Both the position numbers and the translations under genes were made by a program. This document shows positions 1 through 34,655 of a stretch of 46,873 bases of DNA, piece after piece (position 1 is the first letter of the stretch; every line of letters begins with the position of its first letter). The DNA comes from a virus: the IMG/VR virus record IMGVR_UViG_3300050821_001596, positions 1 through 46,873 of that record. One strand, 5' to 3'. Under the pieces are notes generated by a model. That model searched no databases, was not told the origin of the DNA, and saw only the letters and a list, made by a program, of their open reading frames with translations.

Positions 1-10
1 TTCTTAACTG

Positions 11-409
11 GTGGACCAACTAGGAGAACTCGGCCTTTGCCTGAGCAATATGTCTCATACGCAGGTGATGACGACTCGCCGCAAGATGGCTACCATCACG
101 ATAGACAACGTAGACGAGGGCCACTACGGACTCGCTGGCACAGAATCTCTGGCGCAAGGCATACCGTCGATAGCTTGGAATCACCCCATCACTCTACAAG
201 ACCAGCTTGAGCACATGGCACCGGGCGTTGGATCGCCATTCATGGAAGTGAACAGCCTACGCAACGCTGTGCATACCGCAAAGCTAAATGATGAGTTACT
301 GCTTGAGAACAGGCACGCCGCACGCAACTGGATCGAGAGATTCTACAACAGCAAGTACCTCGTGGAACGTTATTGGGAACCTTTCTGCGATGAACTGGTG
401 AAGAAATGA
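11..409 (+). CDS. C-terminal part of a GT-B glycosyltransferase (5' end missing or shifted)
   Basis: The readable product has 132 residues and resembles the nucleotide-sugar-binding C-terminal half of GT-B (GT4-like) glycosyltransferases: a segment ITIDNVDEGHYGLAGTESLA followed by GIPSIAW, the usual place where the donor sugar is held. A full enzyme is about 300-400 residues, so the N-terminal domain is absent. A stop (TAA at 5-7) lies just before the first possible start, GTG at 11, with no visible ribosome site. The homologous-looking part begins within a dozen residues of it. Either the gene is truncated or a frameshift lies at the window edge. Its last four bases overlap the next gene (ATGA). 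Confidence 0.55.
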   Translation: MDQLGELGLCLSNMSHTQVMTTRRKMATITIDNVDEGHYGLAGTESLAQGIPSIAWNHPITLQDQLEHMAPGVGSPFMEVNSLRNAVHTAKLNDELLLENRHAARNWIERFYNSKYLVERYWEPFCDELVKK

Positions 410-867
410 AACGACTGCGCTTGGAAGGACAAACATTCGGTCTGTTGAAAGTGGATAGCCAGCACGGCATAAACTCCCACGGCAATCTGACGTGGTTGTG
501 CAGATGTTGTTGCGGAGGCAAGGCTGTGGTCACCGGAGCCAACCTAAGATCGGGCGGAACTCGAAGCTGCGGTTGTGGTCAAGGCAACCTCCTACACGGA
601 GATGCACGCAGACTGCACGTGACATCGGAGCACAGGGCATACGTCAACGCTAAGAACCGATGCAACAATCCGCGCAACAAGAACTACTCCGACTACGGTG
701 GTAGAGGCATCAAGTTCCTGTTCACCAGCTTCACTCAATTCTTATATGAGCTGGGACGCCGACCAAGCCGTTTGCATTCTTTGGATAGGATCAGGAACAA
801 CGGCCACTACAGACCGGGCAATGTCCGATGGGCAACCAGAAAGCAACAGAGGAGCAACCAGAGATGA
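406..867 (+). CDS. HNH endonuclease of the phage homing type
   Basis: 153 residues. The N-terminal half carries a cysteine-rich patch (CRCCC, then CGCG) like the zinc-ribbon region of many phage HNH proteins. The C-terminal half has the family's conserved string NRCNNP, YGGRGI, a hydrophobic F..FL segment, LDRI, YRPGNVRWAT and a final Q..N. These are metal-dependent DNA-nicking enzymes that usually behave as free-standing homing endonucleases. It starts inside the stop of the preceding glycosyltransferase (ATGA) and ends inside the start of the epimerase, so it is translationally coupled within a sugar-modification cluster where it has no obvious role. Confidence 0.82.
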   Translation: MKRLRLEGQTFGLLKVDSQHGINSHGNLTWLCRCCCGGKAVVTGANLRSGGTRSCGCGQGNLLHGDARRLHVTSEHRAYVNAKNRCNNPRNKNYSDYGGRGIKFLFTSFTQFLYELGRRPSRLHSLDRIRNNGHYRPGNVRWATRKQQRSNQR

Positions 868-1895
868 CCAACTTGTCCGGTCGTAAACACATCGTTCACG
901 TCGTCGGTACGCGGCCTCAATTCCCCAAGGTCGCTCCCGTGTGGCGGGCGCTGCGCAAGTACAACTACTCGCAGACCGTGGTCCACACCGGACAGCATTA
1001 CGACGATCAGATGTCCAAGAACATCATCGAAGACACGGGCTGCCACATCGACATGGTGCTGTGTGGTGACGACAGAAGCGCCAAGAATGAATCCCTTGCT
1101 GAAGCTCTGAGAGTGTTGAGACCCGATCTGGTCATGGTCTACGGAGACTGCAACACATCCCTCGACGCTGCTATGGCAGCCGAGGATGCCAAATGTGAGT
1201 TCGCTCACGTAGAGGCTGGGCTTCGCTGCGGCGATGATCGCATGATCGAAGAATACAACCGCATCAAGATAGATCGCTTCGCCGACATCCTCTACGTTCC
1301 ATCGGTGGACGCGGTGTACAACTTGGCGAAGGAGAAGGTTGTGTTCGAGCGTATTCAGTTCGTGGGCAACGTGATGGTGGACACATGCCACTGGGCGGGA
1401 TGCCTGAACGATCTAGCGATCAAGCGCGAGCGGTTCGGACTGCTGACGATGCACAGGCCAGAGAACGTGGACAATCCACTATTCATGTTGAAGCTCATGG
1501 CTAAGGTTGGTCAGTTGCAATACCCGGTCATCTTCCCGAAGCATCCACGTGTGAAGTTGCCGTCGTGTGTACCGAGCAACGTTAAGGTACTTGGTCCTGC
1601 CAGCTACAAGACGTTTGCAAAGTGGCTGCGCCAAGCACAGTTCCTCATCACCGACTCCGGTGGTCTGCAAGAGGAAGCGACGCTGGCCGGGACACCGTGC
1701 TTGACGATGCGCCCGAGCACAGAACGCCCGGTCACCATCACCGAGGGCACCAACGAACTCTCAACGCCGGAGATGTTGATGGGGCAGGTGCTCCGCATCC
1801 TCGATGGCAAATGGAAGAAGGGTTCAACGCCGTTGTACTGGGACGGCAAAGCAGCAGAAAGGATCGCATGTCATCTCCACTCGTATCTGTCGTAA
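864..1895 (+). CDS. wecB: UDP-N-acetylglucosamine 2-epimerase (non-hydrolysing)
   Basis: 343 residues, slightly shorter than the usual 370-390. It should interconvert UDP-GlcNAc and UDP-ManNAc. Family signatures run in order: GTRPQFPK near the N terminus (phosphate loop), TGQHYD, YGDCNT (catalytic Asp), HVEAGLR (Glu), EEYNRIKID (Glu, Arg, Asp), LTMHRPEN (His), and DSGGLQEEA followed by ERP for UDP binding, so all expected catalytic residues are present. I prefer ATG at 864, which overlaps the upstream stop (ATGA) behind a GGAG site, over ATG 828. Neighbouring glycosyltransferases suggest its product feeds a phage-directed glycan, but the acceptor is unknown. Confidence 0.85.
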   Translation: MTNLSGRKHIVHVVGTRPQFPKVAPVWRALRKYNYSQTVVHTGQHYDDQMSKNIIEDTGCHIDMVLCGDDRSAKNESLAEALRVLRPDLVMVYGDCNTSLDAAMAAEDAKCEFAHVEAGLRCGDDRMIEEYNRIKIDRFADILYVPSVDAVYNLAKEKVVFERIQFVGNVMVDTCHWAGCLNDLAIKRERFGLLTMHRPENVDNPLFMLKLMAKVGQLQYPVIFPKHPRVKLPSCVPSNVKVLGPASYKTFAKWLRQAQFLITDSGGLQEEATLAGTPCLTMRPSTERPVTITEGTNELSTPEMLMGQVLRILDGKWKKGSTPLYWDGKAAERIACHLHSYLS

Positions 1896-2605
1896 TCACC
1901 ACATTCAATCGCGCACCACTTCTGCGCTCGACGTTCGAGAGCTTCATGAAGCAGGAGTTCAAGGACTACGAAGTCATTGTGATCGACGATGGCTCTGACG
2001 AGGCTACACCGAAGCTGTGCGCTGAGCCGTGGCCGTTCTCGATGACATACCACAGGATGAACCGCGACAGGACTCTCGGGTATAACAACCCGGCGCGACC
2101 GAACAACGTCGGCGTGCGCATGGCGAAGGGTGACATCATCGTCCTTCAGAACGCCGAGGTTAGGCACAGCCGAGAAGTGATCCAACGTCTGTCAGAGCAA
2201 TGCGGCACCATGAACGCCGTGTTCGCTCAGGTCGCAGTGCTCGACCAATACGGCCAAAGCAACTCCGAAAACCGCTGGTACTGTCACAGGACGTTCAGCC
2301 CTCGCCCCTTCTTCTTCTGCGGCGCGCTCCGGCGCGAGTGGTTCGAGAAGCTCCGTGGCTTCGATGAGGACTATCAATACTACGGTATGGATGATGTGGA
2401 CTTCGCGGATCGTCTGGCGAAGTGCGGAGTAGAGTTCCACTTCACCAACATCGAGGTTGAGCACCAGTGGCACGGGTGCTCGTTCAATTCCAGCGATGCC
2501 AAGAACAACATCCCGGTCATGACCTACGCCCGCAAGACGCAGGAAATGGCCGATGGCAAGATCGGGGTCGAGCGCAACCTTGGAAGAGAGTGGGGAGCTT
2601 TATGA
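1868..2605 (+). CDS. GT-A family glycosyltransferase (GT2-like)
   Basis: 245 residues. The N terminus is typical GT2: SVVITTFNR, then YEVIVIDDGSDE (nucleotide-binding Asp), then PNNVGVRMAKGDIIVLQN where a DXD-like motif normally sits. Here that position reads NAE, so the metal site is not canonical. The C-terminal half has FDEDY..YGMDDVDFADRLAKCG, which matches the acceptor/base region of GT2/GT7-like enzymes, and a late HQWHG. ATG 1868 overlaps the end of the epimerase by 28 bases. The longer upstream reading frame is only a shadow of the epimerase. The sugar and acceptor are unknown. Confidence 0.8.
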   Translation: MSSPLVSVVITTFNRAPLLRSTFESFMKQEFKDYEVIVIDDGSDEATPKLCAEPWPFSMTYHRMNRDRTLGYNNPARPNNVGVRMAKGDIIVLQNAEVRHSREVIQRLSEQCGTMNAVFAQVAVLDQYGQSNSENRWYCHRTFSPRPFFFCGALRREWFEKLRGFDEDYQYYGMDDVDFADRLAKCGVEFHFTNIEVEHQWHGCSFNSSDAKNNIPVMTYARKTQEMADGKIGVERNLGREWGAL

Positions 2606-2793
2606 AAGTTGACGGCAACTACGAGTTCGGCACACTCGACCAGATCAAGTGTGAGCGATGCTTGAAAATCATCATGTGGACGCCCGGTGGTCTAGGCTCC
2701 ACGTCGGCTTGCTGCAACATCCGCTACGACGCATTCGTACCAGAGGACGACCCGACGCACCTGCGGGTAATCAGTGCGAGAGACAGAGCATGA
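2602..2793 (+). CDS. Small cysteine-containing protein
   Basis: 63 residues, starting at an ATG that overlaps the glycosyltransferase stop (ATGA) behind GGGGAG. It contains CERC in the middle and a later CC pair, a spacing that could bind a metal, but I recognise no family. It ends overlapping the next start (ATGA), so it is the middle gene of a coupled trio with two glycosyltransferases. Coding status rests on the perfect junctions on both sides. Confidence 0.6.
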   Translation: MKVDGNYEFGTLDQIKCERCLKIIMWTPGGLGSTSACCNIRYDAFVPEDDPTHLRVISARDRA

Positions 2794-3470
2794 AGCTAGG
2801 CGTTTACATCGCAACACACAACAACCCGATGTTCCTTCGCCTAGCTCTGCTCCAACTGGAAGCGCAGACGGTGCGGCCCGATATGTTGGCAATTCACGAG
2901 AACGGTCATCCGTTCCAGACCGCCGATCTCATCAGCCGTGATGTGCTGCGCAGACTCAGCCAGACGACGCAGATCATGTTCGATCACACCGAGGCTGGGC
3001 TGGCGCATCCGTACTTCCACTACCTTCCCCTGAAGCGCCTGGTGCATACCGGGCGCTGCGACCTGTACACGAAGTGGGATCACGATGACATCTTCTACGA
3101 GACCCATCTGGAAGAGTTGGCTGCGGTCGCCAAAGACTATCCGTGGATCGGCAAGCGCCGCGCTGACATCCTCGTGCTGAACCAGAAGCAATACGTGTTC
3201 AAGCAGAACCGGGAGTTCACGTGGAACCCGCTGGGTGGAATGTCAGACACCTTCATGTTCAACCACGATGTCGCCAACTGGTACCTGTCCGATATGTTGG
3301 AGCGCGCCGGGAAGAACGAAGCGGACGACTGGATTCTGCACAAGTACACTCTGCCGAGATTCCCGCAGGGCATCATGCTGAACCACCCACCGACTACCTG
3401 CTACGTGTCCCACGGTCGGAACGACAGCACGAGCCATTGGATCACCAAGCCGCCAGATGATCTAAAGTGA
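2790..3470 (+). CDS. GT-A type glycosyltransferase
   Basis: 226 residues. It begins KLGVYIATHNNPMFLRLAL, the start of the GT2/GT-A fold, and has KWDHDDIFY, a good DXD-type metal and nucleotide-sugar site. A later NEADDWILHKY may hold the catalytic base. It is shorter than typical GT2 enzymes and lacks membrane segments, so it is probably a soluble cytoplasmic enzyme. It is the last gene of the sugar cluster, and its stop abuts a strong promoter for the next gene set. Confidence 0.75.
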   Translation: MKLGVYIATHNNPMFLRLALLQLEAQTVRPDMLAIHENGHPFQTADLISRDVLRRLSQTTQIMFDHTEAGLAHPYFHYLPLKRLVHTGRCDLYTKWDHDDIFYETHLEELAAVAKDYPWIGKRRADILVLNQKQYVFKQNREFTWNPLGGMSDTFMFNHDVANWYLSDMLERAGKNEADDWILHKYTLPRFPQGIMLNHPPTTCYVSHGRNDSTSHWITKPPDDLK

Positions 3471-3499
3471 TTGACAACTAACATAGTACAGAATACAAT
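3471..3499 (+). promoter_or_regulatory. Sigma-70-type promoter
   Basis: TTGACA at 3471-3476, a 17-base spacer, and TACAAT at 3494-3499: a perfect -35 box and a five-of-six -10 box. It begins directly after the stop of the glycosyltransferase gene, and transcription would start about 3506, just before the ribosome site of the 3525 gene. It separates the sugar cluster from the genes that follow. Confidence 0.8.
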
Positions 3500-3524
3500 A
3501 GAATAGAAGCATGGAGGAACATCT

Positions 3525-3788
3525 TTGGACTACTTGAAGCCGTTTGCCGGACCTGTCGTGGCAGGACGGGAAGCCGAGGAAGTTGTGTTTGCAAAAGACC
3601 AGCCCCAGTACGTGCCCTTGCGCACCTTGATCTATGAAACCTATCCGGGGTCTGGTGATGTGCGAGTGATGTCGCGTTGGACCTTCACCGCCGACCAACG
3701 CAAGGCAGTGGCAGAAGGAGAGGACATTTACCTGACCCTCCTGACGTTTGGGCAACCGTTGCAGCCAATTTTAATGGCTATCGAATAG
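3525..3788 (+). CDS. Hypothetical protein with TTG start
   Basis: 87 residues, no recognised domain; soluble and mixed in character. The start is TTG, chosen because GGAGG at 3513-3517 lies eight bases upstream and no ATG fits in frame. An ATG at 3511 opens only eight codons in another frame. First gene behind the promoter at 3471. Confidence 0.6.
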   Translation: MDYLKPFAGPVVAGREAEEVVFAKDQPQYVPLRTLIYETYPGSGDVRVMSRWTFTADQRKAVAEGEDIYLTLLTFGQPLQPILMAIE

Positions 3789-3798
3789 GAGTAACGCC

Positions 3799-4062
3799 TT
3801 GGAAGAGACACAGAATATAGTACTACCCACAGAGATCAAGCCGCAGGAGATCGCCATTCCGGCGCGAGTTGCCGAGGAGATAAAGAAGCTGCACGTCAAC
3901 TTGGTTGCCAACGCGCGTGCGTTCGAAAATGCTCGGGCTGCCTTCGGTGAGTTCATCCGTATCACGAAGCGCACGCTGCACATCCCAGAGGATGAGCGTT
4001 GGGAAATCAAAGAAGACGCCTCCGGGTTCGTCAAGCTAACCGAAGAAGGGAACCTAGCCTAA
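3799..4062 (+). CDS. Hypothetical helical protein with TTG start
   Basis: 87 residues, rich in Ala, Glu and Lys, with a predicted helical middle (VAEEIKKLHVNLVANARAF). No known family. It starts at TTG behind AGGAG (3788-3792), the second TTG start in a row. Its stop overlaps the next start (TAATG). Confidence 0.6.
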   Translation: MEETQNIVLPTEIKPQEIAIPARVAEEIKKLHVNLVANARAFENARAAFGEFIRITKRTLHIPEDERWEIKEDASGFVKLTEEGNLA

Positions 4063-4364
4063 TGCCTATCCACGAGTTCAAGTGCAAGAAGGGCCACATC
4101 ACCGAGAAGCTGTTCCTAACATTCTCAGCGGCAGAGAATATCAACACGATCATCTGCACCACATGCGATCACAGCAAAGCGTTGGCGACGCGGATCGAGT
4201 TCTCAGTGCCCGGTATGCCCATACTGTACGGCGAGGGATTTTTCAAGCCCGCCGCCAGTGGTAACAAGGGCTACAAGCGTGGCGATCCATCGAAGGCCGC
4301 TAAGGACACGATCAGCGAAGTAGGAGCGTCAAATCTAATCGGCGCGGTGAAGGGCAGTAAGTAA
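4062..4364 (+). CDS. FmdB-like zinc-ribbon protein
   Basis: 100 residues. It opens MPIHEFKCKKGH, matching the start of FmdB-family putative regulatory zinc ribbons (MPIYEY.C...H), and has the second knuckle CTTC about 35 residues later. The remaining C-terminal part is Gly/Lys-rich with no domain. Family members bind zinc, but their function is poorly known. TAATG coupling to the upstream gene. Confidence 0.65.
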   Translation: MPIHEFKCKKGHITEKLFLTFSAAENINTIICTTCDHSKALATRIEFSVPGMPILYGEGFFKPAASGNKGYKRGDPSKAAKDTISEVGASNLIGAVKGSK

Positions 4365-4389
4365 CCACCTGACACAAAAAGGAGTGCAG

Positions 4390-5424
4390 ATGTCACGCAA
4401 GATTCTGAACACGAATGTTAACAGCCCGAAAGGCAAAGACATACTCAAAGCCTTCGGTACGAAGATCGTAGGCCAGCGCGAAGCGGTCAATGCACTGGTT
4501 GATGTGGTAGAGAACTTCGTCGGTGGATTCTGCACTCCCGGTCGGCCAGCAGGGAACCTCCTGTTCCTTGGTCCCACGGGAACCGGAAAGACTCGCGTGG
4601 TCGAAGCGTTGTGCGAAGGATTGTTCGGCACAGAACGCGCCTGCATCAAGATCGACTGCGGAGAGTTCCAGCATTCGCACGACATCGCCAAGCTGGTCGG
4701 ATCGCCTCCGGGCTACCTCGGTCACCGCGAGACTCACCCGATGCTGACGCAGGAAGCGTTGAACCTGTGGCACACCGAGAAGTTCAAGTTCACCGTTCTA
4801 TTGTTCGACGAGATCGAGAAGGCATCGGATGCCCTGTGGAACATACTGCTCGGCATCTTGGACAAAGCCACGCTCACGCTCGGAGACAACCGCAGGGTTG
4901 ACTTCTCGCAGTGCGTCATCGTCATGACATCGAACCTCGGCGCTACCGAGATGGGCAAAATGGTCGATGAACGACTCGGCTTCCACCAGCAGGCAACGGA
5001 CACAACAGCGGTCGATGCTGACTTGGACAAGCGCCTGTCCGCTGCCGCAACCGCTGCGGCGAAGCGCAAGTTCAAGCCGGAGTTCATGAACCGTCTGGAC
5101 AAGACCGTCGTGTTCCACTCGCTGACGCCGGATCACATCAAGGAGATGTTGGAGATTGAGATAAGCCGTGTGCAGATGGAAATCGTCATGCACACCGCCC
5201 TCCCATTCTTCTTCTGTCTCAGCCCGAGTGCGAAGAAGGTTTTGCTGGCTGAGGGCTACAGCCCGAAGTACGGCGGTCGGCATCTGAAGCGTGCTATGGA
5301 TCGCCGCCTGAAGAACAAGTTCGCAAAGCTGGTTGGCACAGGTCAGATCACTGAGAAGTGCGAGATCGTCGTGGATGCAGACGGCGACAAGGATTTCATC
5401 TTTTACAAACAGGAAGGGCTATGA
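4390..5424 (+). CDS. AAA+ ATPase resembling the second ATPase domain of ClpA/ClpB
   Basis: 344 residues, far shorter than ClpA/ClpB (750-860), with a single ATPase domain of the D2 type. Walker A GPTGTGKT at 61-68, pore-loop-like GSPPGYLGH at 104-112, Walker B LLFDEIEKA about 137-145, sensor 1 TSNLGA about 180-185, an arginine-finger region FKPEFMNRLD and sensor 2 YGGRHLKRA near the C terminus are all present. A working hexameric unfoldase or remodelling ATPase is expected. There is no N domain, D1 or peptidase partner in the window. ATG 4390 follows AAAAAGGAG with good spacing. It overlaps the next gene by ATGA. Confidence 0.8.
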   Translation: MSRKILNTNVNSPKGKDILKAFGTKIVGQREAVNALVDVVENFVGGFCTPGRPAGNLLFLGPTGTGKTRVVEALCEGLFGTERACIKIDCGEFQHSHDIAKLVGSPPGYLGHRETHPMLTQEALNLWHTEKFKFTVLLFDEIEKASDALWNILLGILDKATLTLGDNRRVDFSQCVIVMTSNLGATEMGKMVDERLGFHQQATDTTAVDADLDKRLSAAATAAAKRKFKPEFMNRLDKTVVFHSLTPDHIKEMLEIEISRVQMEIVMHTALPFFFCLSPSAKKVLLAEGYSPKYGGRHLKRAMDRRLKNKFAKLVGTGQITEKCEIVVDADGDKDFIFYKQEGL

Positions 5425-5906
5425 AGATCAAAGCAGAACTGATTCAGGCGAGCAACAACCTTGCTACATCCATCCCCATCTACACGTTCTTGCTCACCTA
5501 CCCGGTGAATAATTGGCTCCTCGACTTCTTAGGGCTGAGTCGCTTCGAGTCCGTTGCAAAGCACCTGACTACTCGCTACTACATCACAGGCACCAGCATC
5601 CGGGTGATGATGAACCAAGCGAGAGCCGAGGCGAACCGCAGCGTACACTGTGCGTTGACCGATGAGATGAATAAGGTAGTGGCGTTCACGCAGGACATCT
5701 TTTGGGCGACGAATCCGAACAACTACGGCGCGGCCAAGCGCATCACGAGTGCGCAGGTGAAGCAGGCCATCGACCTGTTCGGTACGCGTCTTCAGGATGT
5801 GCTGAAGCAGTACAAGCCCGGTGAGATTCATGCGCCATCCGGCCTGAACCACGAGCATGTTTACGACGCCACGGAGCAGGGCTGGAGCAAACGCTTCCCT
5901 CAGTAG
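5421..5906 (+). CDS. Hypothetical protein coupled to the AAA+ ATPase
   Basis: 161 residues, soluble and largely helical, with no recognised motif. It begins inside the ATPase stop codon (ATGA) behind AGGAAGGG, so the two are probably made together. A partner or adaptor role for the ATPase is only an inference from this coupling. Confidence 0.6.
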   Translation: MKIKAELIQASNNLATSIPIYTFLLTYPVNNWLLDFLGLSRFESVAKHLTTRYYITGTSIRVMMNQARAEANRSVHCALTDEMNKVVAFTQDIFWATNPNNYGAAKRITSAQVKQAIDLFGTRLQDVLKQYKPGEIHAPSGLNHEHVYDATEQGWSKRFPQ

Positions 5907-5932
5907 TACACTACGTCGGACGGAGGGCACTG

Positions 5933-6124
5933 ATGCCTATAAGCGATGTGGTTGGAGAGATCGACAAGGAAGTCGCGCGGCTGCTCGCAGCTAAGAAGTT
6001 GCTGACAGGCGGGGTGGTCAAGACTGGCAGGAGCGGACGCGGGCACACGATGAGCGCCGCAACACGCAGGAAGATCGCACAGACTCAGCGGGCGCGCTGG
6101 GCAAAAGAAAAAGGTAAGAAATAA
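5933..6124 (+). CDS. Small basic protein
   Basis: 63 residues behind a GGAGG ribosome site. The C-terminal half (SAATRRKIAQTQRARWAK) is strongly basic and matches a short motif seen at the ends of many small bacterial and phage proteins that may bind nucleic acid. Last gene before a strong terminator. Confidence 0.6.
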   Translation: MPISDVVGEIDKEVARLLAAKKLLTGGVVKTGRSGRGHTMSAATRRKIAQTQRARWAKEKGKK

Positions 6125-6128
6125 CTAG

Positions 6129-6179
6129 ACCGGGGCGAGTGCTGGGGCGAAAGCCTTGGTGCTCGCCCCGGTTTTTTTT
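6129..6179 (+). terminator. Rho-independent terminator
   Basis: A perfect 11-bp GC-rich stem (6129-6139 with 6162-6172) is followed by eight T residues. It ends the rightward set of 3525-6124. Reading leftward there is no T run, so it acts on the plus strand only. Confidence 0.9.
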
Positions 6180-6182
6180 GCT

Positions 6183-6665
6183 TTACTCGGGCCTGAGACT
6201 TTTCCGGTAGTGCTCGTCAATGATGGCGCGGAATCGTGGAACCATTTGGCTCCTCAACTCATCCAACGGCACTGGGAAGAAAATGCGCGCCGTCCTCTGC
6301 TCGAAGTCATCATGTATCCATTTTAGTATCGCGCGGCCTTTGGGAGTAACGACCAGCAGTGACTCACGCCGATTGTCCGGGTTCCGTTTCCTTCGGATCA
6401 GTTGTTTGCTTTCCAAGGCATCCACCATCTTCACCATCACATTATTATTGATGCACAAGCACTGGGCGATGAAGGTCTGGCTGTGCGGCCCGTATTCAGC
6501 CGCCATGAGAATCCAGCCCATGCGCGCGCTGAACCCTTTCTGCTGGCACTCTGCCTCAAGTCGCGCGGTGACGATCCCTAATGCGTGAGTGAGCAACAGG
6601 ACGTAGCTTTTCCATACCTCGGGGAGAAGTACGCAGGGGTTAGCTTCGAGTTTTCTCTTCGGCAT
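6183..6665 (-). CDS. MarR-family transcriptional regulator
   Basis: 160 residues, the usual MarR length. It has the expected order: dimerisation helix, a winged helix-turn-helix (SQTFIAQCLCINNNVMVKMVDALE), then the wing with KRNPDNRRESLLVVTPKG, the family's DxR hallmark. It probably represses a nearby promoter in response to a small ligand. It lies alone on the minus strand between two rightward units and faces a promoter at 6731, a divergent layout typical of self-regulating MarR genes. No clear ribosome site precedes its ATG. Such regulators are uncommon in phages. Confidence 0.85.
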   Translation of the reverse strand: MPKRKLEANPCVLLPEVWKSYVLLLTHALGIVTARLEAECQQKGFSARMGWILMAAEYGPHSQTFIAQCLCINNNVMVKMVDALESKQLIRRKRNPDNRRESLLVVTPKGRAILKWIHDDFEQRTARIFFPVPLDELRSQMVPRFRAIIDEHYRKSLRPE

Positions 6666-8427: not shown

Positions 8428-8675
8428 TAGGATCGCTCCGGCCAAGACCACTGGCGCATCCCTGTGCCCTCCGTGACACTCGTAACCCAAATGTCGTCTG
8501 GCCCATCGGTGAACACCTTCAGGTTCACGCAGGTCTCGGACCACACATGCACGACCACAGCGGGAAGGTCCGGCGAGCAGGAAATTCCGTTGCCGGGTTG
8601 TCCGCTGCCATGCAACTGCTGATCCGTGTAAGGGTCACAGTGGAAGATCACAGTCCTACCTATTGTTGGTTTCAT
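8427..8675 (-). CDS. Conserved-type small phage protein
   Basis: 82 residues. Opening KPTIGRTVIF, a middle VHVWSETCVNLKVF and an ending WSWP resemble a small uncharacterised protein common in tailed phages. Soluble and beta-rich by appearance. Ribosome site GGAG lies six bases before ATG. It overlaps the HNH gene upstream by 20 bases. Confidence 0.6.
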   Translation of the reverse strand: MKPTIGRTVIFHCDPYTDQQLHGSGQPGNGISCSPDLPAVVVHVWSETCVNLKVFTDGPDDIWVTSVTEGTGMRQWSWPERS

Positions 8676-9012
8676 GAAACTCCTTCAGGGCCGCAGTCAT
8701 GGCGACCCACTCTTCGTGTGTAAATGAATCACTCTTTGCGCGGTTGCACCGCGAGCAGCAGACCACGCAATTTTCCTTCGAGTACCCAACTGCATTATCC
8801 TTGCGGTCGAGGTTGTATCCTTTGAAGGATGTATCGTTCATATATGGCACCCACAGAACCGAGGCCCCGCAGTATTGGCACGAGGATGTGCTGGTGAACT
8901 CCACGAACTCGTCGTAGGACAGAAGCACATCCCTCTTGCGCATACCCGCCGATCTCTTGAGCACGTTGTACAAGGATTCGAACGGTCTCAACCTGACGGA
9001 TGCTGCGCTCAC
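8656..9012 (-). CDS. HNH endonuclease
   Basis: 118 residues with the complete small-HNH pattern: CQYCG, then YNLDRKDNAVGYS, then NCVVCCSRCNRAKS and a late F..EEW. Two zinc knuckles frame the HNH core. It is most likely a mobile free-standing nuclease. Its start overlaps the stop of the spanin-like gene (ATGA-type). This is the second of four HNH genes in the window. Confidence 0.85.
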   Translation of the reverse strand: MSAASVRLRPFESLYNVLKRSAGMRKRDVLLSYDEFVEFTSTSSCQYCGASVLWVPYMNDTSFKGYNLDRKDNAVGYSKENCVVCCSRCNRAKSDSFTHEEWVAMTAALKEFHETNNR

Positions 9013-13516: not shown

Positions 13517-14437
13517 CTAGAATGTGGTCCACCACTGGTGGGAATTGATTCTGAGAATTGCTGTGGATGCTCCGTCGATCTGCGCTTGAGAGTATAACGC
13601 CGCTGTGGGAATACCCGTGGTCCCTGCCGCCATCGTCACTTTCAGCACACCGTCAACGTAGAACAGCCATCCACTCGCACCATCGGTCTGGCATTTGAAT
13701 TGATGGAAGGTGGTCGTGTCCGGTGTTATACCAGTGCTCGTCGCAGTGATGTTTGATCCGTCCGTTACCACTGCCATCCAGTGCGTGTCTACCGCAGCGT
13801 CAAAGCGAAACCCTATAAACGATGCCGCCGGAGTTGCCGTTTCCAATGGTGCCCCGGCTGAGGTTGCTCCCATTCCCATCCATACTCGGATGCCAGAAGT
13901 CGTGGAGAAAATCATCGCGTAGTACTGGAACGTGTCCAGCATTGCTGGGCTAAGGATTCCTAAGTTGGTTTCCCCTAAGAAGCAGTAGGTACTGGTACCA
14001 TTCAGTTGAATGAACGGCGGGTCTTGAGTTGAAGCGAAGAACCCGGCAGTTCCACCTTGCTGGAACATGGCAAAGTTATAGTACTGCCCTGCGGTCAGGC
14101 CAAACCCTGCTGGTGTAGTAGGCACGGCAGCGCCGTATGCGTGAAGGGTTCCAGTCGGCACGTGTGTTCCACCACCACCACCGCCCGATGCTGGCTTGTT
14201 CTTCCACTTAGTGCTGGAAGTCTCATAGGTCAGTACATCGTTGTTGGCAGGAGAAGTGATGACTACATCGGTATCCGCTGCTAGCGTCGAAGGGCCGGGG
14301 CTTACCAGAGCGTTTCCTCCGGCAGTACCGACGTAGAGAACGTTGGAGTCCGTGGCGTAATAAAGCTCTCCCAGTGCAAGGACGGGGCAGTTCGCGGCAA
14401 TGCCGCGTTTCAGTTGATGTGTGATACCTAACGCCAT
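13517..14437 (-). CDS. Tail fibre or receptor-binding protein
   Basis: 306 residues. The N terminus, LALGELYYATDSNVLYVG, is the short attachment motif found in many phage tail fibres and hyaluronidase-type proteins, also present in the 26015 fibre. A Gly-rich linker (GGGGGG near 85-90) separates it from a C-terminal beta-rich domain with FYVDGVLKV and HWMAV, resembling a laminin-G/concanavalin-like lectin fold. It probably binds host surface carbohydrate. Last gene of the tail-tip set. Confidence 0.7.
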   Translation of the reverse strand: MALGITHQLKRGIAANCPVLALGELYYATDSNVLYVGTAGGNALVSPGPSTLAADTDVVITSPANNDVLTYETSSTKWKNKPASGGGGGGTHVPTGTLHAYGAAVPTTPAGFGLTAGQYYNFAMFQQGGTAGFFASTQDPPFIQLNGTSTYCFLGETNLGILSPAMLDTFQYYAMIFSTTSGIRVWMGMGATSAGAPLETATPAASFIGFRFDAAVDTHWMAVVTDGSNITATSTGITPDTTTFHQFKCQTDGASGWLFYVDGVLKVTMAAGTTGIPTAALYSQAQIDGASTAILRINSHQWWTTF

Positions 14438-15613: not shown

Positions 15614-18600
15614 TTAGTACCTTTCCAAGTTCAGTCTGTAGTTGTGCCACGTCGCCTCAAGGTACTCTTGAGGGTATTCGGCTAAAGCCGTTGGGATCGT
15701 CGGATCAGACACGGGAGTCGGCGGCGCGGCCACGGTGGTGACCTCGTTGCCGTTGAACTCCGTCACCGCTACCGGGGTGTACCCGTGCATGAGCGTTGCT
15801 GGCGTTCCATTTCCCAATCCGTCGTATGCTGTGACCCGAAACCATCTCGACTCATAGAAATCTGGATCGGACAGCACCATGTGGGTAGTGGGCACGAGCA
15901 GCACAGCGTTTGCGATTCTGGATTCTTCACCGCGCACGAACACGATGTGCATGAAGGTAGCGTCGGTGTTGTCGATCTCGACCTTGAACCCACTGGCCTG
16001 TGTGTTAACTCCCCATTGAAGAGTCTTGGTGCCTTCATCCACCGTAAGCCCCGTCACGGTTGGTGTCGGAATGGTGGAGACGAGGTTGTAGGCCGTGCTG
16101 TACTCTCCAAGCAGGTTGTAGGTGTACACGTAGAAGCTAAGGCTCCGCGTGGCATTCCCAGCATCCACCACACTTGCGGTGAACCCTGCGTCGGTGAGAT
16201 CGACGTGCAGCAGAACGGTTGTGTTGTCTGCGGCTCGAACCTCTACTCCCCAAACGTTTTCCATCACACCCGGCATCAGAACCGTGATGAGAGGATTCTT
16301 GGGATCGGAGACATCCACGGCTGCGGTTGGTTCAGCCGGAATATTCGGATATGCGCAGTGAAGCTCGGCTGAGTATCGGCTGTACAGGGGCGGCATTGAG
16401 TTGTCGTACGCCCTGACAAATATTACTGAGTTGCGCTGGACCCGAGATAGGCTGAACGTCTGGGACGATGTTCTTAGTGCTAGGTTTTTCGCATCGCCTG
16501 TTCCCCATGATCCGTCGTTGTACCGGACTTCGAAGCCGCCGCCTGAAGGAGGGGCCTGATTCGTCTGGAAGTAAATCCTTGTTCTGTCAACACCATTCGG
16601 GTGCGTGCCAGAAAAATCTAGCTCCAAGTTGGTGATGTCCGGCGCATACGCAGTGCCGACGCTCGACGGTTCTATGAATACTGGTAGCTCCGCTGAGTCC
16701 GGGTTGATGAACGTATCCTGTATCAGGAACTTGCCAAGCTGCTTTTGCAGCCGTTGGTTTACTCCTTTGGAGCCGAAGCTAATGCTGTGGTTGAATACCT
16801 CTCCGTTGAGTGACGCTAGGAAGGTGGTGTCCACTTGATAGATCGGCTCGGTGAAGCCCGTCGCCACGAATACTCCGGCAGGGAGGTTCGTGAAAGGGAG
16901 GATCTCTCCTGCCAACGGCTCACTGGTAACGTTTTCAGAAACCACGTCATACTTGCCTTCGTAGTGGGTGTAGCTGCTGAAGCCGATGATGGCTGCGGCT
17001 GCTGCTTCGCACTCGTCGGAAGTCAGTGGCAGAGGAGTGAGGTTGCCATTGTTAACTTGGCTGCGTACTCCATTGTCTCCCCAGTTCGTGGCCTCTGTGG
17101 CCACGCTGGCTGCATCTCGCACCCGTCCCATCGCTACGCCTGCTGACCTGTATGTCAGGCGAATGATGTCACCCTTCTGAGGGACAGTCGTGGTGAGAGC
17201 GGTGCTGTTCTTGAAGAACGTTAATGCGGGAGCGCCTGCGTTGTAGGTCGGCGTCCCAAGGATGTTCTGTTTCTGGGAAGTGCCTCCGGCCTCGGCCACT
17301 GTTGCGAATGGAGACAGGCCGTCCATAGAGTCCACTTCATTCGGTCCAACAATTTTGGGAAGGAACTCTCCAAGGCTAGCTCGTGGAATGGGCGGTGATA
17401 TGGTGGTGGTCCAGTCGGCAGGGAACGCAGCAGGCTGAAGGTTGGTGTTATTCGCCAACGCCTGATACACGATGCCGTTGAAGACTGCTGTCTGACCAAT
17501 CGTGTAAGCGACGGTCGGTGACCAGTTTGCCGGGAATCCAGCGGACGCTATAGACAACTGCGCCTGCATCGGTGTGCTGATCGTTACGTTGGTCAGCGTG
17601 ATGTGCAGATCGTTCGACGCACCCGGAATGTAAAGTGCATACGTGGCGCTTGAATCCAACGCGGCGGTGTTGTTCCAAACTTTGGGCCAGCCGTCTGTTA
17701 CGAGGCCAGTGTTCGGATCAATCTCCGTGATGTACGTCGTCCAAACCGACGAGTCAGGAATAGAAGTCCCACCGTAGCTTCCAATGGTGCCATCGCTCTT
17801 GATGTACTTGTACGCCAGTGTCGAACGAAATATTGCTTGGGTACCCAGCGTAGTGCGCAGCACATAGCGAGGGGAAGTCATGATGGCCCAATCGCCGGGA
17901 CTCGCGTTGGGCTGCATGTTGAAGCTCGTGTCCAGCGCGACGTAGTTAATGCTTGCGAAACGAACCTTCTGTCCGACCGTATAGGTGGTGCTGGAACTCC
18001 ATGCGGGTGGGATTACTCCTTGGTTGCCCGTGGTGTCGATCACTGCATACTGGTAAGGATCAACCACCCCGTTGATGATTGGGTTCAGCGTGACGATGCC
18101 GCCAGACTTGTTCACCCGAATGCCGTAGACGCATCCCGTGTACGAAGCGTTTGGCTCTTGTGTCCACACGCCGCCGACCACACCACACACCAAGTTGTCC
18201 GAGGTTTGCGGAACGAAGTCGTAATCACCGTGGGTCAGTCGCACTGCGCCGCTAAGCGGTATCAGTTGAGCGGAGTCAAGGTGAACATCAAACGAAGAAT
18301 TAGCGGAGCCTCCGAGGAAGTTGCAGAATCCTCCATTGAGTTGGATGAAGTTCGCAACGGTGTCAAATTCGACCCACTTGGCGGTGTCAAAGGTGGACGA
18401 ACTGAAATCGTCATCCAAGATCACCGACTTACAAATTCCATACGCGCTGGCTGCCAGCCCGAAAGACCCGGTGAACCCGTCACCGATGAAGTAGTCCTTT
18501 GCGTAGTTCTGCGGCTCAATGCTGCCGATCACTACAGCGTCGTTGATAATCGGGGCGTCGCTGCTGGCCTTAACGGTCAAGGCGCTCGGGGTGAAACGCA

Positions 18601-19189
18601 TATCCGTCCCGCTGACTGTCAAACCTTGCGGGATGCTGGACTTTGCCAAGAAGTGGAGCTTATGATCCTGACCATAGAATCGGAACACTGCCGAGTCAGC
18701 GAACTCCTTCACTATGTCCGCGAATTTCTTGGTTGGGTCCACAATGTAGCGAGCAAGAGTGTTGCCGTCAGCGATGTTCGTGTAGTCGAACACGCCGGGT
18801 GCAATCATGGTCGCTAGGGCCTTGAGAATTTGCCCTTGTGTCTTGTTCAAAAATGGAGGGATGATGCCGAGGGCGTTCAGGCTGAGAATGATCTCATCGC
18901 TCGACGCCTCATACTTGTAACCCCAGTGTGGGACTCCTGCCTTCTCTCCGAGGTAGGTGTACTCCGGCTCGTTGGTGATGTACCCGGTGAACCAGATGGG
19001 GTAAGTGGCCGTCTGGAATTTGATCCAGTTACCACGGTTGAGCTTTACGAAGCTGCTATCCGTGGCTGCCAATGTGAAGTCCAGAAGAACCGCGTCGCCG
19101 TCACGATCCGATTTGATTGGCTGGTCGTACAGATACTTTAGGTAATCCGCGCTTGTGCCGGGGGCAGTGCTAGTCAGTGAGAGTGCCAT
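15614..19189 (-). CDS. Tail hub / central tail-tip protein with FN3 and sugar-binding-like modules
   Basis: 1191 residues. The first ~230 (SDRDGDAVLLDFTLAATDSS, then KKFADIVKEFADS) resemble the hub domain that caps the tail tube. About 260-360 reads like a concanavalin-type lectin (FSSSTFDTAKWVEFD). Two short WSxxxxYTxGQ modules at ~396-437 and ~555-597 resemble CBM5/12 chitin-binding repeats. Fibronectin III-like domains occupy about 840-1140. It follows the tape measure and a small tail protein, the usual place for this component, which would sit at the tail tip and contact the host. Confidence 0.75.
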   Translation of the reverse strand: MALSLTSTAPGTSADYLKYLYDQPIKSDRDGDAVLLDFTLAATDSSFVKLNRGNWIKFQTATYPIWFTGYITNEPEYTYLGEKAGVPHWGYKYEASSDEIILSLNALGIIPPFLNKTQGQILKALATMIAPGVFDYTNIADGNTLARYIVDPTKKFADIVKEFADSAVFRFYGQDHKLHFLAKSSIPQGLTVSGTDMRFTPSALTVKASSDAPIINDAVVIGSIEPQNYAKDYFIGDGFTGSFGLAASAYGICKSVILDDDFSSSTFDTAKWVEFDTVANFIQLNGGFCNFLGGSANSSFDVHLDSAQLIPLSGAVRLTHGDYDFVPQTSDNLVCGVVGGVWTQEPNASYTGCVYGIRVNKSGGIVTLNPIINGVVDPYQYAVIDTTGNQGVIPPAWSSSTTYTVGQKVRFASINYVALDTSFNMQPNASPGDWAIMTSPRYVLRTTLGTQAIFRSTLAYKYIKSDGTIGSYGGTSIPDSSVWTTYITEIDPNTGLVTDGWPKVWNNTAALDSSATYALYIPGASNDLHITLTNVTISTPMQAQLSIASAGFPANWSPTVAYTIGQTAVFNGIVYQALANNTNLQPAAFPADWTTTISPPIPRASLGEFLPKIVGPNEVDSMDGLSPFATVAEAGGTSQKQNILGTPTYNAGAPALTFFKNSTALTTTVPQKGDIIRLTYRSAGVAMGRVRDAASVATEATNWGDNGVRSQVNNGNLTPLPLTSDECEAAAAAIIGFSSYTHYEGKYDVVSENVTSEPLAGEILPFTNLPAGVFVATGFTEPIYQVDTTFLASLNGEVFNHSISFGSKGVNQRLQKQLGKFLIQDTFINPDSAELPVFIEPSSVGTAYAPDITNLELDFSGTHPNGVDRTRIYFQTNQAPPSGGGFEVRYNDGSWGTGDAKNLALRTSSQTFSLSRVQRNSVIFVRAYDNSMPPLYSRYSAELHCAYPNIPAEPTAAVDVSDPKNPLITVLMPGVMENVWGVEVRAADNTTVLLHVDLTDAGFTASVVDAGNATRSLSFYVYTYNLLGEYSTAYNLVSTIPTPTVTGLTVDEGTKTLQWGVNTQASGFKVEIDNTDATFMHIVFVRGEESRIANAVLLVPTTHMVLSDPDFYESRWFRVTAYDGLGNGTPATLMHGYTPVAVTEFNGNEVTTVAAPPTPVSDPTIPTALAEYPQEYLEATWHNYRLNLERY

Positions 19190-26014: not shown

Positions 26015-28162
26015 TTACGGAAATGCTATGACAGCCGCAGACTGAAAGTCGGCTCCGTTCACATCGGCGTTCGTCTGCTGCATGGTCACAACTATGTCCA
26101 CCGCGTTAGTAAAGTCTGCGGCTGATGTTACGTTTATCCCTGACCCACTTACCCCGTTCGCCTGCTGGATCATGATTGAGCTGATCTGCGAGTTCAAGAC
26201 ACCACGGTTTGCAATAGTTCCACGAAAGCTGTTGGAAACGTTACTCACCGCCGAGGAAATAGATGCTAGGATTGTTCCGGTTAGTCCACTTCCAGAGGCC
26301 CCTATCCGTATCCTGTAAGTGTTGCTTCCAGTAACGGCCACGTTTCTGGTTGCGACGGCTATTTCTAGCACTCCATTGGCAGTCATGAATCCGGCTGGAA
26401 TTGTGGCTGTAAACACTACAGCTTCGGCCTGCGTGCTCTGTAATACATTGACCGCGCTCCGCGCAATCATCAGTCCATAAGCCCCAGCGGTTGACTTTCC
26501 CGTTCCTCCGTTAGCAACGCTAATAGGAAGATCAGACAGATCAGATTGAACGGGTTGCGCTGCAACTGGTGCCCCGTCTGTTCCAATCGAGGTTAGGTAC
26601 TTCTTTGCAACCGCCGCGAAAGACTTGACTCCACCCAACACAGATGAAGAGGGAACCGGAAGCTGAGAACCGACGACGGCCCCGCTGATGTCACCGAAGG
26701 CAGGTTGAGATTGAGTCGGGGTTCCATCCGTCCCAATTGATCGAATCCACTGTGAGGCGACAGCAACGAGGGACTTCACTCCTCCAAGCGTCGTTGAGCT
26801 TGGGGTCGGAAGCTGTGACGCCGTGAGCTTCGAGCTTCCGTCAAGTCCGGCGTAACCGTTAACAGTATTCTTGTTAGTTTGCAACTCTAAGGCTTGATCC
26901 GAAAACAAGAATTGATTCGTCACGCCTCCGAGATTAGAAACAACAACGCTCGCCGAGGGATCAACACAGAACACCTTGTTAGCTCTTGCTGGGGCTGTGA
27001 AGATGCACGCTGTGTTTACAACTTCAAACCGAGTGCACGTCATCAGATTCGCCGTGTTGTTAATGCGAATCCCTACGTCGTACGCCTCAATGTCGCATCC
27101 CTCCACGTTGTTTGCGTTACCGTTGTCTATGTCAATGGCGATAGAGCCAATCCATGATCCGGTGTTACTGAATCCGGTGATTGCGCCGCCTACAAACTGG
27201 TTAGAGTTAGAGGAGCCTGTACACTTTATTCCGTAATAACAGACATTGATGTTGCAGTGTTCGACCCGCATGTAAGCGGAGAAGTTCCCAGTCCCATCGG
27301 ACAAGATTCCATATTGTTTGTTTGCGAGGTTAGCTGCGAGTTCACAATCTTGGATTCTCAGGAAAAGAGTATTCATCGCGTGAATACATCCGGCTCCGTC
27401 AGAGGTACTCTGACATGCGATGAACAGTCCTCTCAATGTGATCTGATTGGTCAGCGTTCCAGCAGAGGAACCAATCACAATCACGAAGTCGGAGCCGTTG
27501 TATTGAATCTTCGCTCCGGCTTGGTTTTCACAGATGATCGAAACACGAACAGCACCAGCGGGGATAATGATTCTCTTCGATCCCAGATTCCAAGTCCCAC
27601 CCTGAACGAAGCGAAGCACATGACCTGTGTTCAAGGTGATGTCAGAGGCCGGAGCGGAGGTTCCAGCGGCCTGACTAATCCATATCTCACCATACGAAGA
27701 GCCGAGCGCCGCATCAGCCGCGTTGACCTTGGCTCCCCAATCGGAACCCGGTTGCTGATCCGCGATGATGACATTATTAAACTGCTGAGAGGTGAACGTC
27801 CCGGTGTGCGCCGTATTAGCAATCGGCGCTAGCAACGCTTCAGTCGCTTCGGCGCGAGTGGTCTCAGTCGTGATGTTAGTTTGCAGCGTGTTGTCTGCTG
27901 TTGCGCGGGCGGTAGCTTCAGATGCCACGGATGCGGTAAGCGCAGCGAGGTCTGAAGTCAGGTTGGTAATATCCCCTTCGCCAAGGACTACGGTACCCAC
28001 TCTACCTGCGACAGAGGATACCGCTCCGGTGTTGACCTTAGTCAGGCTGGCACCGTAAAACAATTCGTTGGTATCGGTCGTGTAGTACCACGTGCCGTCA
28101 ACGCCTACTCTGGGTAGGTTAGCTCTGAGTCCGCGACTCCATAGAATAGGCGTGTTACTCAT
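26015..28162 (-). CDS. Large tail fibre / tailspike-like protein with beta-helix
   Basis: 715 residues. N terminus GTWYYTTDTNELFYGAS is the same attachment motif as in the 13517 fibre. Then come a coiled coil (~60-115) and a right-handed beta-helix (~150-420) with repeated IHAMNTLFLRIQDCELA and MRVEHCNINVCYYGI turns as in pectate-lyase-like spikes. Two near-identical ~48-residue units (~447 and ~497) with LGGVKS and SIGTDGXP follow, then a C-terminal beta domain. It would recognise or cleave a surface glycan. It lies between connector and tail-terminator genes, an unusual site. Confidence 0.75.
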   Translation of the reverse strand: MSNTPILWSRGLRANLPRVGVDGTWYYTTDTNELFYGASLTKVNTGAVSSVAGRVGTVVLGEGDITNLTSDLAALTASVASEATARATADNTLQTNITTETTRAEATEALLAPIANTAHTGTFTSQQFNNVIIADQQPGSDWGAKVNAADAALGSSYGEIWISQAAGTSAPASDITLNTGHVLRFVQGGTWNLGSKRIIIPAGAVRVSIICENQAGAKIQYNGSDFVIVIGSSAGTLTNQITLRGLFIACQSTSDGAGCIHAMNTLFLRIQDCELAANLANKQYGILSDGTGNFSAYMRVEHCNINVCYYGIKCTGSSNSNQFVGGAITGFSNTGSWIGSIAIDIDNGNANNVEGCDIEAYDVGIRINNTANLMTCTRFEVVNTACIFTAPARANKVFCVDPSASVVVSNLGGVTNQFLFSDQALELQTNKNTVNGYAGLDGSSKLTASQLPTPSSTTLGGVKSLVAVASQWIRSIGTDGTPTQSQPAFGDISGAVVGSQLPVPSSSVLGGVKSFAAVAKKYLTSIGTDGAPVAAQPVQSDLSDLPISVANGGTGKSTAGAYGLMIARSAVNVLQSTQAEAVVFTATIPAGFMTANGVLEIAVATRNVAVTGSNTYRIRIGASGSGLTGTILASISSAVSNVSNSFRGTIANRGVLNSQISSIMIQQANGVSGSGINVTSAADFTNAVDIVVTMQQTNADVNGADFQSAAVIAFP

Positions 28163-29901: not shown

Positions 29902-30879
29902 CTAGTTCGTGGTGACCCTGATCCCCGGCATTTCTTTGTTATCAGCCACGGATTTGATCCATGTGGCAGCGGTCAACAGAGTCGCATCCAGAGGGTTGAA
30001 GCCCTGTGTGGTGTCGTAAGCGCAACCCTTGACGCGCAGGTTGAACGCATACTCACCCTGAATACGGTCCACCAAGTTCTCCAACCCGGTGACAGGCTGT
30101 GAGATGATGTCCCGCTCTTCGGACTCCGCAACTTCCACACCGTTCTCGACGAGGCCGAGAACATCGTATGTGGTTGCGTTGGAACCTGTGGTGAACAAGT
30201 TCGGGCTGTCCAGAACCACGACAGGCTTGCCGAAGGTTGCGATGGTGCCCGCGTACACGGTAGCGCCAGCGACTTCGAACAACTTGTCAGCGATCTGCTG
30301 CTTCATCAGATCGAAGTAGTTCTTGGAGTGCATGACCCAACAAACGATCCGGGCCGCGCGATCTCCGAACTTCGACATGCCGCCGACCATTGCGGTGTGG
30401 TTCAAGGTCTTCAGGGTGTCAGCCGTTGCGTCGTACTGCAATGCTGCCTGATTGCTGATCGCAGCGCGCACTGCACCAACCGCGAGGTTGATGTAGTCGA
30501 TTGCGATTGCCGGACCGCTCTGCTGGCCCAGCATGAAGCTGAACTCTTCAGGCGATACGCCGATTTTGCGGAAGGCATCCCGAGACTGTGTGACCGGGCC
30601 GAGTCTGCGGTTGACCTTCACGCCGATCAGTTCGCCAGCCGACAGCTTGTTGTCGGTCACGCCAGTGGTGGCAGTGATGTCCCGGCGAGAGATCAGGGAC
30701 GCAGTGGACTTCAAGAACGACTCGCGTTCGTAGTCGCCCAGAATGCTGCGGGTGACGAGACGGACGGCGTTCTGTGAAGCCGCGTTGAACGCTTCGGTGT
30801 TCTGCTGCAAGGTCTCGACGACCCCGCCCCAGAACTGAGCGTTGTAGATTACGAAATCGGACTGTGTGCCGATACTCAT
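29902..30879 (-). CDS. Major capsid protein
   Basis: 325 residues. Strings such as NAVRLVTRSILGDYERESFLK, SFMLGQQSGPAIAIDYINLAVGAV and ARIVCWVMHSKNYFDLM are typical of the phage capsid family around Gp13-type major capsid proteins (HK97 fold). It lies after the scaffold gene as usual. It has the strongest-looking leader in the block (AGGAG, with a motif shared with the tail-tube gene) and is followed by a terminator hairpin. Confidence 0.8.
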   Translation of the reverse strand: MSIGTQSDFVIYNAQFWGGVVETLQQNTEAFNAASQNAVRLVTRSILGDYERESFLKSTASLISRRDITATTGVTDNKLSAGELIGVKVNRRLGPVTQSRDAFRKIGVSPEEFSFMLGQQSGPAIAIDYINLAVGAVRAAISNQAALQYDATADTLKTLNHTAMVGGMSKFGDRAARIVCWVMHSKNYFDLMKQQIADKLFEVAGATVYAGTIATFGKPVVVLDSPNLFTTGSNATTYDVLGLVENGVEVAESEERDIISQPVTGLENLVDRIQGEYAFNLRVKGCAYDTTQGFNPLDATLLTAATWIKSVADNKEMPGIRVTTN

Positions 30880-33651: not shown

Positions 33652-34644
33652 CTATGTGCGAATGTCGTTTTCTTTGAACCACACCAGCAGTTCGTCCAGA
33701 GTCCGCGTGCGGCGCTGTGCGATCCACTTCGAGTGCTCGTGTGCTTTGCTTTCGGCTGCCGTCATCAACTCGTACATCGGCGTGACGACTTGCCCTCTCC
33801 TAATGAAGCGGGTGCATTTCATCGCGCTGCTGAAGACTCGTGCTAGCCATTCATCGCCGCCGATCAACTTGGCTGCCATGAACATGTTTTTGTAGTAGTC
33901 GTCTGTGAAGTGCCGCGCGTAGGCGCGTTCGCCTGCCCAGTGCAGGTGGATCATTTGTGGGTCAATCCAAACTTCTTTTCCGAGTAGCCAGAACTTCAGG
34001 TCGGTGTAAGTTTCCTCACCGCCGTAACCTTCGAAGCCCTGCCAGTACCCGCCTGTCTCTTTCCATGCGCTGTTGCGCACTGCGAAGCCGCCGTGTCCAG
34101 CGACCGCTACGCGGTACGGAGTCAGCGGCGTGAGGGGTTCACGGTATGGTTCGAGCGTCCAGAAGTCTCGCTTCAGGGACAGCTTGTATTCGTAGTTCGT
34201 GCCCTCGCCGTGGAAGAACCGCGTCGTGGAATGCAGGAAGTCAATGTTGTGCGCTTCCATTGAGTTCACGCCGCGTGCGAAGTACCCCGGCGTAGGAAGA
34301 CAGTGGTTGTCGAAGAAGAACAGGTATTTCCCGTTCGCATTCTCCGTTACGATCTGCCGCGCTGCGGGTGGTGACATCGGCTGTACGACGTGGAGGAACT
34401 CACCAACGTGTCCAGTCTTTTCGGTGTAATGCTTGATCCGAACTATGTCTTCTGTGGCCTTCTCAATTCCGTTGGCGCAGATGCGGAACTCGTAGCTGAG
34501 TCCGCTGCGCTCCAAGTCCATGATGCAAGACTCAATCGTTAGCCACAGGCCCATCTCCGGGCCGCGGTGCGCAATGATGACGCTCACGTCCACTGGCTTG
34601 CTTACTTGCAGGCCGGACGATGGAATCAGACTTGGGATTTTCAT
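33652..34644 (-). CDS. GT-A glycosyltransferase (GT2/GT27-like) within the head module
   Basis: 330 residues from ATG 34644. VSVIIAHRGPEMGLWLTIES begins a GT-A fold. GKYLFFFDNHCLP is where a DXD/DXH metal motif lies. FEGYGGEETYTDLKFWLLG with a later MIHLHW closely matches the catalytic region of polypeptide GalNAc-transferase-like enzymes. A soluble enzyme with no membrane helix. Between SprT-like protease and portal genes, so co-expressed with virion proteins; a virion protein is a plausible acceptor. Confidence 0.75.
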   Translation of the reverse strand: MKIPSLIPSSGLQVSKPVDVSVIIAHRGPEMGLWLTIESCIMDLERSGLSYEFRICANGIEKATEDIVRIKHYTEKTGHVGEFLHVVQPMSPPAARQIVTENANGKYLFFFDNHCLPTPGYFARGVNSMEAHNIDFLHSTTRFFHGEGTNYEYKLSLKRDFWTLEPYREPLTPLTPYRVAVAGHGGFAVRNSAWKETGGYWQGFEGYGGEETYTDLKFWLLGKEVWIDPQMIHLHWAGERAYARHFTDDYYKNMFMAAKLIGGDEWLARVFSSAMKCTRFIRRGQVVTPMYELMTAAESKAHEHSKWIAQRRTRTLDELLVWFKENDIRT

Positions 34645-34655
34645 AAGATCAGGCG

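Follow-up and report, generated by a model that had tools for sequence, protein, structure and literature searches.

Gene content of the sugar cassette

The analysed stretch, below called the window, is the whole of the linear IMG/VR virus record IMGVR_UViG_3300050821_001596, with a length of 46,873 bases. In silico inspection reveals a cassette of sugar-nucleotide and glycosyltransferase genes near its beginning and, among the virion genes, a further glycosyltransferase gene of GT27-like character; jointly, these enzymes may glycosylate the phage's own virion.

The cassette is built around a WecB-type non-hydrolysing UDP-HexNAc 2-epimerase (864-1895, plus strand), which covers the full Epimerase_2 domain (PF02350, E 3.8e-69, profile positions 4-345 of 347). 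Asp95, Glu117, Glu130 and His197, the catalytic residues according to the literature on Escherichia coli WecB, are invariant in all five rows of an alignment that sets the window protein against a WecB of Salmonella and three further WecBs taken from records of phage collections. The first-pass annotation had read here a full UDP-N-acetylglucosamine (UDP-GlcNAc) 2-epimerase with its catalytic residues, coupled to transferases; the family assignment, the residues and the coupling, visible as overlapping genes within 864-3470, all stand. The protein thus resembles both WecB and the UDP-2,3-diacetamido-2,3-dideoxy-glucuronic acid 2-epimerases (WbpI-type) in its full-length family match and catalytic residues. 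On the wecB model TIGR00236, however, it scores 206.6 bits, 3.5 below the equivalog cut-off of 210.15, and it is therefore labelled WecB-type rather than WecB. By score it is nearer to the diacetamido-glucuronate enzymes, which are its best solved relatives, followed by the UDP-GlcNAc 2-epimerase 4neq. For these two reasons UDP-GlcNAc is a likely but unproven substrate, and the N-acetylmannosamine (ManNAc)-type donor of the first-pass annotation is not established.

The next gene (1868-2605, plus strand) encodes a soluble GT2-family glycosyltransferase with a second motif resembling Glyco_transf_7C (PF00535, E 2.2e-16; PF02709, E 2.9e-8), well above the Glycos_transf_2 cut-off (60.7 against 23.3 bits). 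Its closest match in the PDB is a chondroitin synthase, and its best NCBIfam matches are transferases of exopolysaccharide synthesis and protein glycosylation, all far under their cut-offs. There is a weak match to the GtrB-like family phrog_841 (E 4.4e-7); Gtr-type O-antigen conversion is the work of a membrane GtrA/GtrB/Gtr trio, and the window protein possesses no membrane segment. The gene is followed by a Cys-rich, zinc-ribbon-like open reading frame (ORF) of 63 residues (2602-2793, plus strand), overlooked in the first-pass annotation, which overlaps the transferase genes on both sides and has no significant family match.

The last gene of the cassette (2790-3470, plus strand) codes for a GT2-like glycosyltransferase of divergent sequence that contains a DHDD motif. 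Searches of Pfam, PHROGs, NCBIfam and PDB sequences returned no match, and the protein does not reach the Glycos_transf_2 cut-off. A GT2 profile that was iterated without this protein nevertheless recruits it (E 5.1e-5; 21.8 bits, against at most 9.4 in 1000 shuffles), and among the window ORFs only the three transferase ORFs score on this profile. A single homologue has been found, in the phage record G078 (38% identity, E 5e-41), where it occupies the same site and itself reaches only E 0.14 on Glycos_transf_2; no homologue was found in plasmids and genome contigs. The structure predicted from the single sequence is uninformative (predicted local distance difference test score, pLDDT, 30.3). 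Phages and viral contigs yielded no close relatives of the cassette, either by DNA or by single protein.

Ahead of the epimerase there is an HNH endonuclease gene (406-867, plus strand; phrog_374, E 3.6e-41), which overlaps the genes on either side at its start and stop codons and may have entered the operon as a homing-type insertion. Further HNH genes are located at 44590-44949 (plus strand) and 8656-9012 (minus strand), one of them directly behind the DNA polymerase gene. Positions 1-409 (plus strand) hold the C-terminal fragment of a gene cut by the record end, with an in-frame stop at 5-7. At best it is a GT-B glycosyltransferase C-terminus, its match to positions 93-170 of the 172-position PF00534 profile (E 0.16) being below threshold, though in the right register; other family scans were empty, and it shows no homology to the GT-B gene of record G015 or to the other compared loci. 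The claim of three transferase-like genes, one of them incomplete, is accordingly sustained for the GT2 and GT2-like genes, whereas the incomplete one lies outside 864-3470, separated from the cluster by the HNH gene, and owes its tentative identity to the PF00534 match.

Start and stop codons of neighbouring genes overlap throughout 406-3470, an arrangement resembling that of a translationally coupled operon. The highest 19-residue mean hydropathy among the six genes of 1-3470 is 1.12, and the cassette proteins are without a membrane segment. The operon is followed by a candidate sigma-70-like promoter (TTGACA-17-TACAAT, 3471-3499, plus strand, 11 of 12 positions matching), which would start the next operon; promoter-like sites in 1-6200 number two against 2.8 expected from shuffles, so that only the score of this site is notable.

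A GT27-like transferase among the virion genes

A GT2-family search of related phages pointed to a gene that PHROGs do not recognise, at 33652-34728 (minus strand, likely ATG start at 34644), between TerL and the portal gene (31884-33632, minus strand; phrog_145, E 2.7e-52). Its product matches PF00535 (E 8.1e-7). When profiles of the family were compared with the PDB at E 0.01 or better, all 15 matches of a six-row profile and 15 of the 18 matches of a 19-row profile were polypeptide N-acetylgalactosamine (GalNAc)-transferases, the other three being other glycosyltransferases. An AlphaFold model (18 rows, 322 residues) has a pLDDT of 89.7, and the 50 Foldseek matches listed, out of 406 in the PDB at E 0.001 or better, are without exception polypeptide GalNAc-transferases (best E 7.7e-16). 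Among predicted viral proteins, the Foldseek matches are GT-A enzymes of several sorts, from phages as well as from other viruses. The predicted GT-A fold thus matches GT27 better than other GT-A enzymes.

A DNH motif and a G..GEE motif are invariant in the 18 rows of the family and correspond to the DxH and GGE-type motifs of GT27. Eukaryotic polypeptide GalNAc-transferases, the enzymes of mucin-type O-glycosylation, usually carry a C-terminal ricin-type lectin domain. The phage protein shares their fold, sequence profile and motifs, but is only about 15% identical to them, and its model of 322 residues, against targets of about 440-550 residues (target-length TM-score 0.38-0.49), lacks this domain; hence the label GT27-like.

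The position of the gene is conserved in the viral loci sampled. A scan of viral contigs confirmed 24 of 276 pattern matches, in 23 loci that include several near-duplicates. In 22 of the 23, the first structural gene detected downstream, at most 0.9 kilobases (kb) away, encodes the portal; the exception, L158 (26% identity), has no detected portal. TerL is found upstream in 13 loci, the rest being cut short or without a detected match. The transferase gene is therefore tied to virion genes. Tunturiibacter phage Tunturi_4 likewise has it (gp2) between TerL and portal, with about 48% identity to the window protein and the same gene order, and in G015 a second copy immediately follows the gene of the major head protein. 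Genome contigs contributed one weak relative only, from Actinomadura hibisca (25% identity, L174 8001-8537).

GenBank names the Tunturi_4 gp2 product only as a glycosyltransferase, and the genome section of the Tunturi paper makes no mention of it (PMC11924767). No paper on a phage gene resembling polypeptide GalNAc-transferases was found in the open-access literature, most subscription papers being outside the search. The GT27-like gene is adjoined by an SprT-like metalloprotease gene (34656-35087, minus strand); a zinc-protease-like gene has been described among the transferases of cluster J mycobacteriophages (PMC3706429).

The phage and the cassette site in its relatives

The window encodes a terminase, a portal, a major head protein and a DNA polymerase, as assigned through PHROGs, and four tRNA genes. 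The nearest isolate found, and thereby a cultured relative, is Tunturi_4, a prolate siphovirus of Acidobacteriota (PMC11924767) with a genome of 88,042 bases. The major head proteins of the two phages are about 72% identical, and the values for TerL, portal and DNA polymerase are about 62%, 57% and 44%, respectively. Since Tunturi_4 infects Tunturiibacter, the window phage is predicted to be a siphovirus of Acidobacteriota. The long relatives (Tunturi_4, G077, G078 with 94 kb and G015 with 97 kb) measure 88-97 kb, so the window probably represents about half of a phage genome. A further contig of 109 kb (L051), which has an exonuclease and a deoxynucleoside monophosphate kinase in common with the window but no GT27-like gene, was left out of the comparison.

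The cassette site can be followed through a landmark gene beside it, which encodes an FmdB-like zinc-ribbon protein (4062-4364, plus strand; PF09723, E 2.8e-4, under the cut-off) with 47% identity to its G078 homologue and further homologues in G015 and Tunturi_4. Immediately ahead of it is a small ORF (3799-4062, plus strand) with a counterpart at the same place in G078, recognised through its position and a weak BLASTP match (31 bits over 37 residues). Five relatives were compared and three were informative; G077 and G082 say nothing on the site, because they gave no FmdB-like match. In G078, the FmdB-like gene is preceded by an SDR epimerase (PF01370, E 6.2e-36), standing where the window has WecB, by a GT2-like gene (PF00535, E 7.9e-5, 0.2 bits under the cut-off in one scan and over it in another) and by the homologue of 2790-3470. 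In G015 the same place is taken by a GT-B gene, an SDR epimerase and a methyltransferase. Tunturi_4 has the FmdB-like gene without any sugar genes beside it; it shares with the window the GT27-like gene and its order, and not the cassette. Because relatives carry other sugar genes, or none, at the same FmdB-flanked site, the cluster is a modular, accessory and swappable cassette at a fixed location.

The epimerase itself is particular to the window phage among the related records examined, since PF02350 was absent from all of them (0 of 17, 0 of 14 and 0 of 10, in overlapping sets consisting mostly of fragments). Viral contigs of IMG/VR in general often carry WecB: out of 464 pattern matches, 414 were confirmed as its relatives. 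A GT2-family match was present in 27 of 50 WecB records examined, taken from the best 80 loci of viral records not screened for host DNA; it lies within 10 kb of WecB in 25 and within 3 kb in 16. The window shows the same pairing. Its third protein differs, as the 80 best loci contain no homologue of 2790-3470, and only weak matches to the GT2 protein of 1868-2605. WecB-bearing records labelled as phage, mostly unannotated or host-like contigs, were rejected as evidence of phage WecB, and a search of the open-access literature, with most subscription papers outside it, found no paper that treats WecB as an auxiliary gene of phages. Given that phage-borne WecB beside GT2 is common, the window cluster by itself belongs to a known kind and is ordinary within it. 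Less expected is that a GT27-like gene kept in one place is combined with a cassette that can be swapped.

Other features of the window

Several further genes have been noted. An ORF of 715 residues at 26015-28162 (minus strand), with a weak minor-tail match, sits among the head-tail genes and is not present in Tunturi_4 or G015. A tail protein with CBM5/12 carbohydrate-binding modules is encoded at 15614-19189 (minus strand), and the product of 13517-14437 (minus strand) has an N-terminal domain of the Mtd type (Mtd_N); a check for hypervariation linked to this domain, confined to direct repeats, detected none of 40 bases or more. The phage also encodes a MarR-family regulator (6183-6665, minus strand) and a ClpB/ClpA-like protein (4384-5424, plus strand) consisting of the second AAA module and the D2-small domain only, with relatives in other large viral contigs.

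The probable target of glycosylation

The best explanation of these genes, held as a whole with moderate confidence, is that the phage glycosylates its own virion, with the cassette either providing the glycan or building it further. The virion proteins would be modified in the host cytoplasm, a location favoured by the position of the GT27-like gene and the solubility of the cassette proteins. The lineage-core GT27-like enzyme, judged by fold and position, would attach the first sugar to Ser or Thr of head or tail proteins, the major head protein (29902-30879, minus strand; phrog_247, E 4.7e-45; 72% to Tunturi_4) being a candidate acceptor. The WecB-type epimerase would provide a specialised donor, which is probably UDP-ManNAc or a related compound, and the GT2 and GT2-like transferases of the 406-3470 operon may extend or cap the glycan, thereby adding outer sugars to the GT27-like product. 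As the fixed site holds other sugar enzymes in relatives, related phages would display different glycans. Host, acceptor, sugar, linkage and benefit are putative throughout.

Several points weigh against this explanation. The virion glycan and its acceptor are predicted, and so is the substrate of the epimerase. The only tie between cassette and GT27-like gene is their co-occurrence in the window, G015 and G078; in the window they are about 30 kb apart, and Tunturi_4 keeps the GT27-like gene without the cassette, so the two may be unrelated. With WecB absent from the related records examined, its link to the GT27-like gene comes from one phage. Finally, bacterial WecB usually feeds envelope polysaccharides.

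The latter point leads to the main rival, possible but weaker: the cassette would alter the host envelope, a ManNAc-type donor from WecB being built by the two transferases into an O-antigen- or exopolysaccharide-like glycan that changes receptors or blocks superinfection, with the GT27-like gene serving separately. The Salmonella WecB gene does lie in an envelope polysaccharide cluster, exopolysaccharide transferases are among the far sub-threshold NCBIfam matches of the GT2 protein, and the cassette has the accessory character of cargo genes. Tunturiibacter, moreover, makes extracellular polysaccharide-like material (PMC11924767). An envelope target is made weaker by the lack of any membrane segment in the cassette, and among the window genes scanned neither a flippase nor an undecaprenyl-linked enzyme came to light; in the relatives, too, the cassettes consist of sugar enzymes, transferases and a methyltransferase, with no flippase recognised. 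Another account, which we regard as improbable, sees the cassette as cargo without a specific target, WecB draining UDP-GlcNAc from host wall synthesis, or as genes in decay. The HNH gene, the cut first transferase and the accessory distribution of WecB would suit it, but the truncation may be merely the record end, the catalytic residues of WecB are intact, all downstream frames are open and overlapping, and G078 has a conserved counterpart of the third protein at the corresponding site.

Glycosylation of phage DNA is very unlikely. Viral glycosyltransferases that hypermodify DNA have been reported (Pyle 2024, as cited in PMC12619734), and the window contains a deoxynucleoside monophosphate kinase (phrog_139). 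The dUMP/dCMP hydroxymethylase-type family PF00303, however, was unmatched in all six records scanned (the window, the complete Tunturi_4 and four long viral-contig relatives), a search that did not include TET/JBP and left about half of the window phage's genome unseen. The thymidylate-synthase family is the usual source of hydroxymethylases, and the Tunturi_4 annotation lists no gene of this family. Of the virion, DNA and host envelope named as targets by the first-pass annotation, the virion has gained independent backing, from the GT27-like enzyme of the virion operon.

Virion glycosylation by phage-encoded enzymes has precedents. Transferases located in virion operons have been described in mycobacteriophages (PMC4351075; PMC3706429), and capsid glycans have been reported for mycobacteriophages Che8 and Rita, with transferases encoded elsewhere, near the 3' genome end (PMC11256854). 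The described systems of Corndog (cluster O), cluster J and Che8/Rita (F1) comprise several transferases, some of them encoded within the virion operon beside the portal or a capsid gene, and methyltransferase genes lie close by. The window differs in having a GT27-like virion-operon enzyme kept across the sampled relatives, and a cassette that encodes its own sugar-nucleotide epimerase and varies between phages; its glycan is a predicted one.

A broader proposal, tentative and rather doubtful, is that one group of siphoviruses of Acidobacteriota performs a mucin-type O-glycosylation of its own virions, in which a fixed, portal-linked starter enzyme is combined with a swappable cassette (WecB or an SDR epimerase, and transferases) setting the outer sugar, and coats would switch in the manner of O-antigens. 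In the literature found, phage virion glycosylation has been shown in mycobacteriophages. If the virion is indeed glycosylated here, this modification would be extended to phages of Acidobacteriota, and the finding would bear on the occurrence of GT27-type enzymes outside eukaryotes.

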